DNA of 33,851 nucleotides from a virus. Shown here one piece after another: positions 6,574 through 33,851 of the stretch. Below the pieces are notes generated by a model, which did not search any database, was not told the DNA's origin, and saw only the letters and a program-made list of their open reading frames with translations. The DNA lies in the IMG/VR virus record IMGVR_UViG_3300044825_002655, positions 1-33,851 of that record; one strand, 5' to 3'. The position numbers and the translations under genes are program-made. How positions within the stretch are numbered: the stretch's first letter is position 1; every line of letters starts with the position of its first letter.

Positions 6574-7224
6574 ATGGAATTTAAAGAGATTCTCAATCTG
6601 TTTCCCTATAGAAGCGAATCTTTAATTAAATATAATGAATCATTTTTAGCAGCTTCACAAGCATTTAACAACCCAGAAAAAAACGCTGAAGCTACAGCAG
6701 CAGGAAATACAAAATATGAATATGCGAAAATCGATAAAATTTACCAAGCAGTGGAAAAATCATTACATAAAAATTCGTTATATATTACCCATCAGGTTAT
6801 TGCTATCGCGGTAGATAAAGAGATATTAATAACGACTATTATGCATACAAGTGGCGAATTTCTGCGTGATATCAGGCATCTTGTCATGGAAAAGCCGGGT
6901 CATCAGAGTAGAGGTATTGCTCAAACCTATAGCCGAAAATATGCGGTGCTTTGTTTATGTGCGTTAGCAACGACTGACGATGATGCGTCGGCGGAAGAAA
7001 AATTTATTGAGCAACAAAAAGCTGAACAAGAAAAAAAATTAACTCAAAAAATAACTGCTGAAGAAGCAGAGGAGATTAAATCTTACTGTGAGAATGAATT
7101 GTATAAGTTAACTGAACAAAAAATTTGCGACAAATATCAAATTAAAAACTTATATCATCTAACCTATGAACAATATGTATCAGTTAAGATGCGTGTTGAT
7201 CAAATAAATAAAGAGCAAAAATGA
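6574..7224 (+). CDS. ERF-family single-strand annealing protein (second copy)
   Basis: This 216-aa protein has a good ribosome site (ataaggatacc). It carries the ERF core 'KYEYAKIDKIYQAVEKSLHKNSL' (47-69), 'ITTIMHTSGEFLRDI' (86-100) and a well-kept 'GIAQTYSRKYAVLCLCALATTDDDASAEE' block (114-142), closer to the usual family signature here than the first copy. The C-terminal ~60 residues (ITAEEAEEIKSYCENELYKLT...YQIKNLYHLTYEQY) align in pattern with the C-terminus of the first ERF, so the two are paralogues. ATGA overlap couples it to the SSB gene, a classic recombination pair. Why one phage keeps two diverged ERF proteins is unclear; mixed rings or division of labour are possible. Confidence 0.82.
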   Translation: MEFKEILNLFPYRSESLIKYNESFLAASQAFNNPEKNAEATAAGNTKYEYAKIDKIYQAVEKSLHKNSLYITHQVIAIAVDKEILITTIMHTSGEFLRDIRHLVMEKPGHQSRGIAQTYSRKYAVLCLCALATTDDDASAEEKFIEQQKAEQEKKLTQKITAEEAEEIKSYCENELYKLTEQKICDKYQIKNLYHLTYEQYVSVKMRVDQINKEQK

Positions 7225-7649
7225 ATATAAACCAAGTTTTTTTATACGGTAATGTTTGTACTGATGTTGAAAAGAAAGTAGCTGGTAGTGTGAATTTGTT
7301 TAAATTCAACTTAGCTGTAGACAATAGTGTGCGTAGATCAAATGGTGAGCTCAAAAAAGATACTTTGTTTATAGGTTGTGTGTGTTTTAACGAAAAGCAA
7401 GCAGGTACTTTAACTAAAGGGTCTAAGGTCTTTGTGGCTGGTAGATTAAAACTAGAAAGCTGGGAGAAGGAAGGCAAAAAGTTCAGCAAACATGTGGTTG
7501 TGTGTGAGATGGTGATGAGCCAAGATGCTTCAACAGCTGTTGAAACTATTCAGTTAAAAGAAGACAATAAAGCTGCAAAATTAGAACAGATGATAAATAA
7601 TATGGCTGTCAAAAAAATACAAGCATTCGATGATGATTTACCGTTTTAG
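7221..7649 (+). CDS. ssb: Single-stranded DNA-binding protein
   Basis: This 142-aa protein has the OB-fold pattern of bacterial SSB: 'MNINQVFLYGNVCTDVE', 'FKFNLAVDNSVRRSNGELKKDTLFIGCVCF', 'GSKVFVAGRLKLESWEKEGKKF'. It ends in the acidic tip DDDLPF (137-142), the conserved tail with which SSB recruits host replication and repair proteins. It overlaps the second ERF gene by ATGA and is probably co-translated with it. It would coat phage ssDNA during replication and load or limit the ERF proteins. Length and motifs are normal for the family. Confidence 0.93.
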   Translation: MNINQVFLYGNVCTDVEKKVAGSVNLFKFNLAVDNSVRRSNGELKKDTLFIGCVCFNEKQAGTLTKGSKVFVAGRLKLESWEKEGKKFSKHVVVCEMVMSQDASTAVETIQLKEDNKAAKLEQMINNMAVKKIQAFDDDLPF

Positions 7650-21182: not shown

Positions 21183-22130
21183 TTATGAACTTAAAGTGCT
21201 ACGTAGGTTATAAATCCACAAATCGTTTAAGATTCGAGGTACTTCAGCAAACACATAACCAATAGTTACGTTTTGGAAAAGTGGATCTGAAAACACTGGC
21301 GGCCTGTATAAGAACCTTGCTGAGAAGTTATCTTGCTCAACACAAGCCAATGATTCCATACCTTGAATAAACGTATTGTACACGGTGTTGCCTAATGCAG
21401 ATGCATTCGGAACTTTTGAACCTACGCTTGATAGCATAAATCTAACGTTGTTAACTGTTCCCCACTCACTTCTTAGGGTTGAGTTTTGGTTTGGATAATT
21501 CCATTTAGAAATAAATCCGTTAATATTATTTAGATCTTTTGCTAAGTCTGTATGTCCTAAGGCTAAATAAGCATCACGTACAGGGCCAGTTCCAAAGCGG
21601 TCTTCGCCTTGAACGTTGTCTAAAATCATCCAAGCGTCGTTGCTCAATAATGCTTGTGTCACATTATCAATATCTGACAAGCTTAGGTTTGTAGGCAAGT
21701 CACCATTTGTTCCACCTGTACAGTTGATAAATCCTGCTGTTGAAGCAAGCATATCACGTGTTAGTTGGTCTTCTGTCATACGTAATGATAAGCCAAGTAG
21801 CTCAGCTGTTTCATTCAAGACAGGGTCTTGGTTTTGTAGTGTCACCTGTTGGTTGATGGCTACATATTGACCATAGAATGACATGGTAGCATCAATATCA
21901 ACCCTGTTTAATGGGGTAGCAGGTGGTGTAGCACCGGAGGGCCCGAGAGGGACTGGTGCTGTAGGTAATCTATCGTATCTTGCCATACGTAATGTACGGC
22001 CGCCTTTTGCTGGTAAACGTTTTGATAACGCACCCAATTTCATAATTAAATTAGGTGTTCTAACAGATAGTAATACGTCATCAAAAGTTTGTTGCACTGG
22101 CGCAGGTAGCGTTGTAGGAGTAGTTATCAT
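21183..22130 (-). CDS. Major capsid protein (N4 gp56-like family)
   Basis: This 315-aa protein. 'LIMKLGALSKRLPAKGGRTLRMARYDRLPTAPVPLGPSGATPPATPLNRVDIDATMSFYGQYVAINQQVTLQNQDP' (29-105) is the N-terminal pattern of the N4 gp56-type coat proteins (RLP..G...R..RY..L...P..P.G..P....L....i.a....YG.yv.ls...). Size and order (scaffold, coat, decoration) agree. It folds as HK97-type. The ribosome site is 'aggataatagt'. Upstream lies a scaffold-gene terminator and three tandem hairpins, so coat translation or transcription may be separately controlled. Confidence 0.85.
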   Translation of the reverse strand: MITTPTTLPAPVQQTFDDVLLSVRTPNLIMKLGALSKRLPAKGGRTLRMARYDRLPTAPVPLGPSGATPPATPLNRVDIDATMSFYGQYVAINQQVTLQNQDPVLNETAELLGLSLRMTEDQLTRDMLASTAGFINCTGGTNGDLPTNLSLSDIDNVTQALLSNDAWMILDNVQGEDRFGTGPVRDAYLALGHTDLAKDLNNINGFISKWNYPNQNSTLRSEWGTVNNVRFMLSSVGSKVPNASALGNTVYNTFIQGMESLACVEQDNFSARFLYRPPVFSDPLFQNVTIGYVFAEVPRILNDLWIYNLRSTLSS

Positions 22131-22173
22131 ACTATTATCCTGTGCAAAAAAATAAACTTTTATAACTTTGAGC

Positions 22174-22255
22174 TGCCGAGACTCACTACGACGGTTGGGA
22201 TTTGGCGAGAATCAATACGCCTAAGATAGGAGACTGACGAGGTCTAATACGTCAA
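22174..22255 (-). ncRNA. Three tandem hairpins in the capsid gene leader
   Basis: Three 21-nt units (22255-22235, 22223-22203, 22194-22174, read on minus) share the frame G-N-C-G, a 10-nt loop starting TA and ending CT, then C-G-N-C-A. The variable stem pair is A-T, G-C and T-G in the three copies, so pairing is kept while sequence changes. The units lie between the scaffold terminator and the capsid start. Probably an RNA regulatory element or a set of protein-binding sites. I know of no matching described family. Confidence 0.6.
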
Positions 22256-22269
22256 GAATGTTTTAACAC

Positions 22270-22304
22270 AAAAAAAATAGCCTTGCAATATATACAAGGC
22301 TATT
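22270..22304 (-). terminator. Strong intrinsic terminator after the scaffold gene
   Basis: On the minus strand AATAGCCTTG (22304-22295) pairs with CAAGGCTATT (22285-22276), followed by an unbroken T-run to 22270. It separates scaffold from capsid transcription or attenuates it. Confidence 0.9.
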
Positions 22305-22343: not shown

Positions 22344-23069
22344 CTAACTCCTGTTACGTTTAGCTTCTTCGACTTGGCGTCTAATTTCTGCTTTGCGTTC
22401 TTCTGTTAAAATTCGACGATCATAATCGCCAACTTTAGTAAGAGGTGTGTCTCCTGTCTGTGGAGCCACATTAGCAATAGAACGAGGCTTATTTTTATTT
22501 TGTTCGATACGTTTGTCCACGTCTTCGTATCTATTTTTTTCTGCATAAAAAACACTGTTTTTAATAATGTCGTACGCAGCTTGTCCTTTTTCATATAAAT
22601 CAGGATTACTTATTATTGATTTGTATAAGAACGGTTTGTCCTGTTTGAGCTTTTCTAAGTTTTCAGCACTTACCACACTATCAAAATCATGGTATTTATT
22701 ACGCAACTGCATTTCAATAGTCTGAAGTTGAGTTTGTTGATGTAACTTTTTTAACTCATTTATTTTTTTATTAACCGTTTTGTAAGTCTTTTTTAAATGC
22801 TTACCTTCAGCAAAAGAATCATCATCCAAATCCAAATCATCGTCTTCATCAACTAACTCAATCTTTTGTGATGGTTGATTCGGATTCATATTTTGCTGTA
22901 TCATGCGCTCTAATTCAAGACTGCGACGCTCAGCAGCTTCTAAACGCTCACGCATCATACGCATGTTGTATTCTTTATTTGATTCAATCTTTTCTTCTTG
23001 CTGAGTCTCTTGAATCACAGGGGCTTGAGGTTGCTCAGTATATTGCTCTAAGTTTTCTTCGTTGTACAT
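22344..23069 (-). CDS. Scaffolding protein (probable)
   Basis: This 241-aa highly charged helical protein lies directly upstream of the capsid gene. The N-terminus is Gln/Glu-rich (EENLEQYTEQPQAPVIQETQQEEKIESNKEY), with an acidic cluster 'ELVDEDDDLDLDDDS' (~75-89), long helices (KKTYKTVNKKINELKKLHQQTQLQTIEMQLRNKYHDF) and a basic C-terminal helix (ILTEERKAEIRRQVEEAKRNRS) of the sort that binds coat protein. Composition, size and gene order are those of phage scaffolds. It overlaps the preceding gene by 22 bases. Confidence 0.8.
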   Translation of the reverse strand: MYNEENLEQYTEQPQAPVIQETQQEEKIESNKEYNMRMMRERLEAAERRSLELERMIQQNMNPNQPSQKIELVDEDDDLDLDDDSFAEGKHLKKTYKTVNKKINELKKLHQQTQLQTIEMQLRNKYHDFDSVVSAENLEKLKQDKPFLYKSIISNPDLYEKGQAAYDIIKNSVFYAEKNRYEDVDKRIEQNKNKPRSIANVAPQTGDTPLTKVGDYDRRILTEERKAEIRRQVEEAKRNRS

Positions 23070-28422: not shown

Positions 28423-28504
28423 TGTACAGTAAGCCCTTGCTATATTAGTTTTGAGGCGTTGTCAAGGCTCTTTTAAAATTTTGTGCGCGTCAAAAGCGCC
28501 GTCA

Positions 28505-28543
28505 AATTACACGCTGCCAGACGACATAAATAATATTTTGAGG
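28505..28543. repeat. 39-bp flanking repeat, copy 1
   Basis: This 39-bp sequence with core TGCCAGACGACATAAATAAT recurs at 28662-28700 with two mismatches. The two direct copies bracket the 12-mer array. Confidence 0.9.
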
Positions 28544-28551
28544 CTCAATGC

Positions 28552-28655
28552 GCGTCAAAAACGCGTCAAAAACGCGGATAAAGCGCAGAGTAAAACGCGG
28601 ATAAAGCGCAGAGTAAAACGCGGAGTAAAACGCGGAGTAAAACGCGGAGTAAAGC
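28552..28655. repeat. Tandem array of 11- to 12-bp units
   Basis: GCGTCAAAAAC twice (28552-28573), a 23-bp compound unit made of GCGGATAAAGC and GCAGAGTAAAAC twice (28574-28619), then GCGGAGTAAAAC twice and GCGGAGTAAAGC once (28620-28655). There are no spacers, so this is an iteron-like array, not CRISPR. Confidence 0.9.
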
Positions 28656-28661
28656 TCCTCC

Positions 28662-28700
28662 AATTATACGTTGCCAGACGACATAAATAATATTTTGAGG
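28662..28700. repeat. 39-bp flanking repeat, copy 2
   Basis: Second copy of the 28505-28543 repeat, 157 bp downstream. It is followed by AGGAGTATTACTCCT (28698-28712), a perfect inverted repeat just after the ankyrin gene's stop. Confidence 0.9.
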
Positions 28701-28723: not shown

Positions 28724-29269
28724 TTACTCAGCCCCTTTTTTTAACAAAAGCTCTACAATTTCTTTGTGGCTGCCGTTAATTCGCGCCCACTGTAACGCTG
28801 ACAAGTTGTGATTATTGCGTAACATTATATTTGCATTCTTATCTATGAGCAGCTCGCACAAGTCTTTACGGTCTTTTAGTACTGCATACATCAACAAGGT
28901 ATTAGACATGCTGCCAAAACGTTGATTTACAGCCAGCTCTTTACGTTCTATAAGTTGCTCAACCTCTCCCACGCTGCGACGTAAAAAGTCATCCACAATA
29001 TGAGGCGCTTCTTCTGATATAAAAGGGGCACCATCATGCTCACGTGGGACTTGCCATATTAAGCTACCTCTAAGGCTTGCGGCACTTCTACATAATGAAC
29101 GCTCATCTGTAGGCCATGCGCTTAACCCATTTTCATCGACGCACGCCACAAAAGGAGCAGCCATAGAAAACATATAAGTTTTAGGGCTAGCCTTACCTTT
29201 GGGTCCGGTTGGTGTTTCTGAACCAAATAAAAAAAAAACAAAAAAAGAAAAAAATAATAATAAAAACAT
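28724..29269 (-). CDS. Ankyrin-repeat protein with N-terminal membrane segment
   Basis: This 181-aa protein begins inside the terminase stop (TAATG), so it is translated with it. Residues 1-17 (MFLLLFFSFFVFFLFGS) are a hydrophobic signal or anchor, unusual in having no basic start. A middle of ~70 residues has three Cys. Residues ~91-181 hold ankyrin repeats: a degenerate first (VDDFLRRSVGEVEQLIERKELAVN), then 'NTLLMYAVLKDRKDLCELLIDKNANI' and 'NLSALQWARINGSHKEIVELLLKKGAE'. Ankyrin repeats bind proteins and are rare in phage head operons. A host-cell or eukaryote-directed effector, an envelope-located exclusion factor or a virion component are all possible. Coding sequence is intact. Confidence 0.85.
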   Translation of the reverse strand: MFLLLFFSFFVFFLFGSETPTGPKGKASPKTYMFSMAAPFVACVDENGLSAWPTDERSLCRSAASLRGSLIWQVPREHDGAPFISEEAPHIVDDFLRRSVGEVEQLIERKELAVNQRFGSMSNTLLMYAVLKDRKDLCELLIDKNANIMLRNNHNLSALQWARINGSHKEIVELLLKKGAE

Positions 29270-33575: not shown

Positions 33576-33851
33576 TGGCATATAATAGTTTTATAAATAA
33601 ACAAGCTGGTACGCAGTCACCTAAGTTTGAATTTAAAAAAGATAGAGCTAATGCTGCTATCGTATCTGGTGATGGGTTGGGAGAATTTAATTTTCGTGCT
33701 TTTGACGGTACCTCTTACATTGATACCAGTAGAATAATTTCAACTTCTTCTGGAACAATTGCTGCAAACAGAATTGGTTCTAATTTAGAATTTTATACTC
33801 ACCCTGATTCTGCTGTTGCTAGCACACAAAGAATGGTAATTAATTCTGAAG
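33575..33851 (+). CDS. Tail-fibre protein, N-terminal part (continues at base 1)
   Basis: The start ATG overlaps the stop of the preceding gene (TAATG). The first 50 codons, unique to this end, run into the terminal overlap and continue in the same frame at base 1, giving a 670-aa protein that ends at 1863. The N-terminus (MAYNSFINKQ...) is short and polar. It is likely the part that docks to the particle or to the neighbouring fibre protein, but I recognise no attachment domain. The tight coupling to the gene before it suggests the products assemble together. The split is a linearisation artefact, not a broken gene. Confidence 0.9.
   Translation, partial: MAYNSFINKQAGTQSPKFEFKKDRANAAIVSGDGLGEFNFRAFDGTSYIDTSRIISTSSGTIAANRIGSNLEFYTHPDSAVASTQRMVINSE
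33725..33851. repeat. Terminal overlap, copy 2 (circular contig)
   Basis: Exact second copy of bases 1-127. Removing it gives a unique genome length of 33724 bp. Confidence 0.95.

Follow-up and report, generated by a model that had tools for sequence, protein, structure and literature searches.

Introduction

The nearest described motif to the element reported here is STAXI (RF01728; Weinberg et al. 2010), which consists of tandem pseudoknots, usually in three copies, and is of unknown function (PMC2864571). STAXI spans 153 model positions, often carries UUCG tetraloops, and lies near genes for SSB, topoisomerase, antirestriction proteins, and integrase. ToxI RNAs are tandem, compact H-type pseudoknots with a 25-nt core and a 4-bp stem 1; they belong to the gene for the ToxN endoribonuclease, their repeats are processed, and single-stranded flanks bind the toxin (PMC8860590). 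In phages T4, T2, and RB69, a single-copy pseudoknot in the leader of the SSB gene, gene 32, lies 67 nt before the start codon and functions in autoregulation by gp32, and the message is very stable, in T4 the most stable mRNA (PMC3014915). In papA and other host genes, usually one simple hairpin at the extreme 5′ end limits access by RppH and RNase E, both of which require single-stranded 5′ ends, and such 5′ structure blocks both enzymes and stabilizes mRNAs (PMC3997798). Finally, the putRNAs of HK022, two stem-loops of about 70 nt just after the promoter in early phage transcripts, bind RNA polymerase (PMC9378689).

We analyzed a viral DNA record of 33,851 bases (the window, meaning this whole stretch) in which three short units, each a candidate pseudoknot, precede a major capsid gene. 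Like STAXI, with its two or three pseudoknots, the arrays are repeats, containing one to eight units with a mode of three, but each unit is only about 23 nt and the arrays head capsid genes. The likeness to gene 32 lies in a pseudoknot in a phage mRNA leader, but the coat arrays are tandem, differ in sequence, and precede a capsid gene; no unit was found near the SSB gene of the window (7221-7649). In contrast to ToxI, the gene after the window array encodes an N4-gp56 capsid protein, not a ToxN-family protein, and linkers can be about 1 nt. Candidate pseudoknot arrays on phage coat mRNAs differ likewise from the papA-type hairpins and the putRNA stem-loops.

An Rfam search of the window and eight other array loci gave no family match at gathering score; matches at lax thresholds, which we rejected, lay on the terminator or far below the cut-off, with none on the units. 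Run against the window record and six relatives, the STAXI model gave nothing even at E ≤ 10, and an F plasmid stretch used for comparison contained no STAXI instance. Searches of open-licence papers returned no description of this tandem coat-leader element. Compared with that literature, the array is a real, conserved, and apparently undescribed RNA element.

Results

Three units with two interleaved stems lie in the coat-gene leader

The array is flanked on its 5′ side by the terminator of the scaffold-position gene and on its 3′ side by the coat ATG (22130), as placed by the initial annotation. The features of the locus, all on the minus strand, are listed below.

22344..23069, minus strand: acidic gene in scaffold position, no family match
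22276..22304, minus strand: intrinsic terminator of the scaffold-position gene, 3′ arm includes the −35 box
22260..22288, minus strand: probable sigma70-type promoter; −35 TTGCAA at 22288-22283, 17 nt, −10 TAAAAC at 22265-22260
22253-22170, minus strand: whole array, three units
22231..22253, minus strand: candidate pseudoknot unit 1, GACG-TATT-[AGAC]-CT-CGTC-A-[GTCT]; exact pattern match, covarying stem-2 register
22253-22250 with 22239-22236 (stem 1) and 22245-22242 with 22234-22231 (stem 2, AGAC/GTCT), minus strand: stems of unit 1
22199..22221, minus strand: candidate pseudoknot unit 2, GGCG-TATT-[GATT]-CT-CGCC-A-[AATC]; exact pattern match, covarying register
22170..22192, minus strand: candidate pseudoknot unit 3, GTCG-TAGT-[GAGT]-CT-CGGC-A-[GCTC]; exact pattern match, covarying register
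21183..22130, minus strand: major capsid gene, N4-gp56 family (TIGR04387); profile match E 7e-38, 130.7 bits, cut-off 60

The pattern GNCGTANNNNNNCTCGNC has exactly three matches in the record, all on the minus strand, and 100 dinucleotide shuffles gave none. These matches (22253-22236, 22221-22204, and 22192-22175) start 32 and then 29 nt apart along the coat-gene strand, in agreement with the three units and the 29-/32-nt spacing of the initial annotation; its variable stem pair (A-T, G-C, T-G) and its kept loop ends (TA..CT) were also confirmed in all three. With the pattern present only three times, a repeat dispersed through the genome was ruled out, and a descriptor scan of the rest of the window gave matches at background level only.

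Each unit had been described as a plain hairpin. Stem 1 of that fold stands, but the hairpin is incomplete, as the 10-nt loop also pairs 3′ of the stem: AGAC with GTCT in unit 1, GATT with AATC in unit 2 (22213-22210 with 22202-22199), and GAGT with GCTC in unit 3 (22184-22181 with 22173-22170). The partner bases lie just 3′ of stem 1 plus one unpaired A, and the register of this second stem is identical in units 1-3; when random tails of the same composition were substituted, all three units shared a register by chance in 167 of 400,000 trials. Stems 1 and 2 interleave in the arrangement of an H-type pseudoknot. Because the loop pairs with bases 3′ of the stem, each unit is most simply read as a compact 23-nt H-type pseudoknot, with the consensus GNCG-UANN-[NNNN]-YU-CGNC-A-[N'N'N'N'], an S1 of 4 bp, an L1 of about 4 nt (UANN), an S2 of 3-6 bp, an L2 of 2-3 nt, and an L3 of 1-2 nt. 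Unit 3 contains one U-G pair in each stem.

Both stems covary in relatives

A coat-protein scan of 2.9 million viral contigs found 481 relatives, of which 80 were kept, and similar arrays were present in the leaders of the kept relatives down to about 62% coat identity. For covariation analysis, units were picked on the sequence core alone, ignoring the outer stem-1 pairs and all of stem 2, which gave 234 units from 95 leaders and a non-redundant subset of 72 units. First, the outer stem-1 pairs were Watson-Crick in 212/234 and 218/234 units, compared with maxima of 147 and 131 in 2000 permutations, and the stem-2 core pairs were Watson-Crick in 195, 196, and 184 of the 234, compared with maxima of 127, 119, and 115 in 2000 permutations. 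Second, the same pairs beat all 2000 permutations in the non-redundant 72 units, and pairing in the core-picked units fell to 25-34% when registers were slid. Third, for 33 diverse units, a pair counter scored 84% of cells as paired versus 30-45% in slid registers, and the covariation score was 0.529 versus 0.185 ± 0.024, a value reached by 0 of 500 shuffles; such shuffles leave relatedness in, an effect reduced in part by the use of non-redundant units and by the slid control. The CGUA and YUCG segments of the core were nearly invariant across relatives.

Selection on an RNA fold, which the initial annotation had proposed from the three window units, is strongly supported by these results, with the amendment that it acts on a second, interleaved stem as well and not on plain hairpins, and the units are conserved ahead of relatives' coat genes. 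Plain hairpins were rejected as incomplete because the second stem covaries. Among the stem-2 core cells that were not Watson-Crick, G-U outnumbered A-C by 29 to 10, which favors RNA of the coat sense as the active form. A DNA operator for a dimeric protein was rejected, because the arms are free to change as long as they still pair and the surplus of G-U favors RNA; a plus-strand fold, being on the wrong strand, was also rejected. From the covariation, we infer that both stems form together as a pseudoknot, and RNA is the probable active form of the array. The anatomy of the unit is well supported, whereas the function proposed below is a reasoned hypothesis. This family of units shows very clear covariation that is invisible to ordinary nested folding.

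Weak single stems and replaced cores

The single stems are weak, at about −3.5 and −2.3 kcal/mol. Ordinary nested folding of the window leader was no better than that of shuffles (z 0.38), and in units 1 and 2 of the window a generic pseudoknot energy scan favored different pairings. With so short an L3, the pseudoknot geometry is tight. Covariation of both stems, together with a linker of only 1-2 nt between their 3′ strands, could instead reflect two mutually exclusive hairpins acting as a small switch or kinetic folding element, but the fixed register, the steady length of loop 1 (mostly 3-4 nt in relatives' units, regardless of stem-2 length), and the weakness of the single stems argue for joint formation, and ToxI provides a natural pseudoknot of 25 nt with a 4-bp stem 1 (PMC8860590). 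We therefore consider exclusive hairpins unlikely and retain the pseudoknot as the simplest description.

The leaders of two relatives, L056 and L058, lack the CGUA/UCG core and contain two tandem pseudoknots built from other letters, TAGACC..[TTTAGG]..GGTCTA.[CCTAAA] and GGACC..[TTTAGG]..GGTCC..[CCTAAG] or close variants, with a score that 0 of 60 shuffles reached. Retention of the topology with another core is expected if shape outweighs protein-specific sequence. The leader of L049 (2400-2630) carries different tandem repeats, with GCAAC..GTTGC hairpins, ahead of its coat gene; these are possibly another replacement structure, and a generic pseudoknot scan of this leader found nothing above shuffles.

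Array size, spacing, and gene context

Among 128 distinct coat-gene leaders gathered from relatives and later loci, a strict descriptor found at least one unit in 100 and no recognizable unit in 28. The 100 leaders contained one unit in 14 cases, two in 27, three in 45, four in 12, five in 1, and eight in 1. Spacing peaked at 24-26 nt, so that units commonly abut, separated by about 1 nt; in L181, seven pattern matches occur at an exact 24-nt spacing, with eight units by descriptor. This packing bears on the idea that the array acts as a decoy, drawing off a ToxN-like type III toxin of the host or some other RNA-binding defense protein. ToxI antitoxins are likewise tandem compact pseudoknots, but ToxI requires single-stranded flanks and repeat processing (PMC8860590), and the units, besides being so closely packed, precede a capsid gene rather than a toxin gene; a decoy is accordingly very improbable.

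Gene-blind scans, in which five degenerate patterns were run against all 2.9 million viral contigs, gave 154 matches, of which 137 were ahead of a capsid gene: 131 preceded an N4-gp56 coat gene (123 in tandem) and 6 preceded a gene of a second capsid family. The best profile for this second family is NF033394, below its cut-off, and there was no TIGR04387 match. A protein search yielded 12 loci of the second family, most of which have units in the gap that separates the coat start from the stop codon of the preceding gene; these arrays directly follow that stop codon and have no obvious promoter. The 17 non-capsid matches included three truncated coat starts (L097, L224, and L240) and one fragment of a scaffold-coat operon (L177); apart from L218, described below, the others, mostly single copies inside coding sequence, were judged to be chance. 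When 20 relatives were searched whole, clustered units occurred at one place per genome, and stray matches were isolated. L126, L157, and L177 are scaffold-coat operons, and where scaffold and coat genes abut (e.g., L157) the unit is ahead of the scaffold gene, so the unit marks the start of the capsid transcript. Linkage of the array to capsid transcripts is near-exclusive.

The array ends a median of about 54-55 nt before the coat ATG, comparable to the position of the gene 32 pseudoknot at −67 (PMC3014915). By analogy with gp32, excess coat, scaffold, or another phage protein could bind the pseudoknots cooperatively and stop coat synthesis, and the near-invariant CGUA/YUCG core and the tandem copies, which suit cooperative binding, are what such a translational-feedback operator might look like. 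However, one core heads the capsid genes of two families, each with only one profile match, the core is replaceable while the topology stays (L056 and L058), the number of units varies from 1 to 8, and the unit shifts to the scaffold gene where scaffold and coat abut. Feedback by coat or scaffold protein is weakened because the unit is shared by two unjoined coat families and because the same topology occurs with a different core. We regard feedback as improbable, though worth keeping in view, and as less likely than the 5′-terminal clamp discussed below.

Ribosomal protein S1 prefers pseudoknots. If the array recruited S1, the 30S subunit, or another host factor, it might act as a translation enhancer or ribosome standby site that raises coat synthesis, a reading in keeping with the fact that it always heads the gene for the most abundant structural protein and with its sharing by two capsid families, suggestive of a host partner. 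The median distance of 54 nt between array and ATG counts against this role, which we consider somewhat less probable than feedback.

Several observations concern the wider distribution and the hosts. On the minus strand of L218, around 5752, one or two similar units lie ahead of a scaffold-like gene in a locus with a third kind of capsid-like gene; these may be real and represent a possible further spread of the element. Cultured phages and prophages with N4-gp56 coats (Pseudoalteromonas Y3, StenR_269, Page, API480, two plasmid prophages, and others) had no units when inspected by eye, and their scaffold-coat gaps were short or unrelated. The coat genes of many relatives (L087, L098, L110, L128, L132, L145, and L157) are interrupted by insertions, often after about 11 codons (later in L157), which encode LAGLIDADG or other endonuclease-like ORFs and resemble self-splicing introns; among the four searched, none of Rfam's intron models passed its cut-off. 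Five contigs of 2.1-2.4 kb (L029, L035, L047, L056, and L058) start 102-237 nt 5′ of the coat start and all end near the end of the gene after coat, as if assembled from RNA transcripts. The coat relatives L184, L188, and L189 (also L183, L185-L187, and L190) in the genome collection come from metagenome bins, of which three of eight are Chlamydiota (Simkaniaceae, Parachlamydiaceae); the hosts could be environmental chlamydiae, with binning error possible. In the window, an ankyrin-repeat protein encoded at 28724-29269 on the minus strand, adjoining the terminase gene, is weakly like ankyrin effectors of intracellular bacteria and would fit a host living inside cells. Upstream of the portal gene, 28502-28700 contains two 42-base repeats (93% identical) flanking short GCGGAGTAAAAC repeats. 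The record ends are identical over 127 bases (1-127 = 33725-33851), which makes it probable that the record is a complete genome, either circularly closed or terminally redundant.

Promoters place the first unit at the predicted transcript start

Sigma70 transcripts normally begin about 7 nt after the −10 box. Of the leaders that had two or more units and sufficient upstream sequence (92 in all), 57 contained a recognizable promoter of the type TTG..N16-18..TANNNT, compared with about 14 at any distance in shuffled upstream sequences. In 45 of these 57 promoter-bearing arrays, a gap of 6-7 nt separates the −10 box from the first unit, with a spacer that is almost always 18 nt, and these 45 fit an element with structure at or within a few nucleotides of the predicted start. 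Given the usual sigma70 start, the RNA should begin at or very near the outermost base of stem 1, and the first pseudoknot thus probably opens the coat mRNA from its initial base. The −10 box in the window ends 6 nt 5′ of unit 1, but its promoter boxes match the consensus weakly, whereas relatives' promoters are strong, and a simple promoter scan of the window did not call the candidate at 22260..22288.

A position just downstream of a promoter is also that of HK022 putL, and the effect of put reaches over 10 kb (PMC9378689). The window coat gene is the first of a long gene run that contains a terminator-like site at 19162-19127, as might be expected if nascent RNA from the array modified RNA polymerase for read-through of downstream terminators. 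Put RNA, however, spans about 70 nt and consists of two stem-loops, with no pseudoknot described (PMC9378689), the arrays vary in copy number from 1 to 8, and those of the second family lack an adjacent promoter. A put-like antiterminator is therefore quite unlikely, if a little less so than a decoy.

Discussion

Structure at the first transcribed base, repeated, and on the capsid transcripts of two families best fits protection of the 5′ end. We give about an even chance to a model in which the array is a 5′-terminal pseudoknot clamp that stabilizes the coat mRNA. The transcript would start no more than a base or two from the first unit's stem, so that the triphosphate end and the leader would be held in structure, and enzymes that attack single-stranded 5′ ends (of the RppH/RNase E or RNase J type) could not start decay. 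The coat mRNA would then stay long-lived and highly translated, and multiple units would give redundancy. Stabilization as the effect of the array is suggested by analogy with the papA-type and gene 32 leaders.

The occurrence of the same arrays in a second capsid family that the N4-gp56 profile does not match supports a clamp. Several observations count against it. First, the near-invariance of CGUA and YUCG exceeds mechanical need, unless these bases make tertiary contacts. Second, the second-family arrays lack an obvious promoter. Third, the single stems are weak, nested folding gave a z of 0.38, and the energy scan preferred other pairings in window units 1 and 2. Finally, 28 of the 128 leaders have no unit.

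Phages need hundreds of coat subunits per virion, and how the coat mRNA is favored is poorly known outside a few model phages. On the sequence evidence, the case is evenly balanced that these tandem 23-nt pseudoknots, which would form the 5′ end of capsid transcripts in at least two capsid families and keep their topology where the core is replaced, represent a widespread and hitherto undescribed class of cis-acting RNA in phages, with 'cap-like' protection or prioritizing of coat mRNA. If the 5′ clamp is correct, it would be a defined, portable element in which unit number may set mRNA lifetime. The array may explain why these uncultured phages retain a promoter and leader of their own for the capsid genes, and it probably protects or adjusts the viral message in heaviest use.
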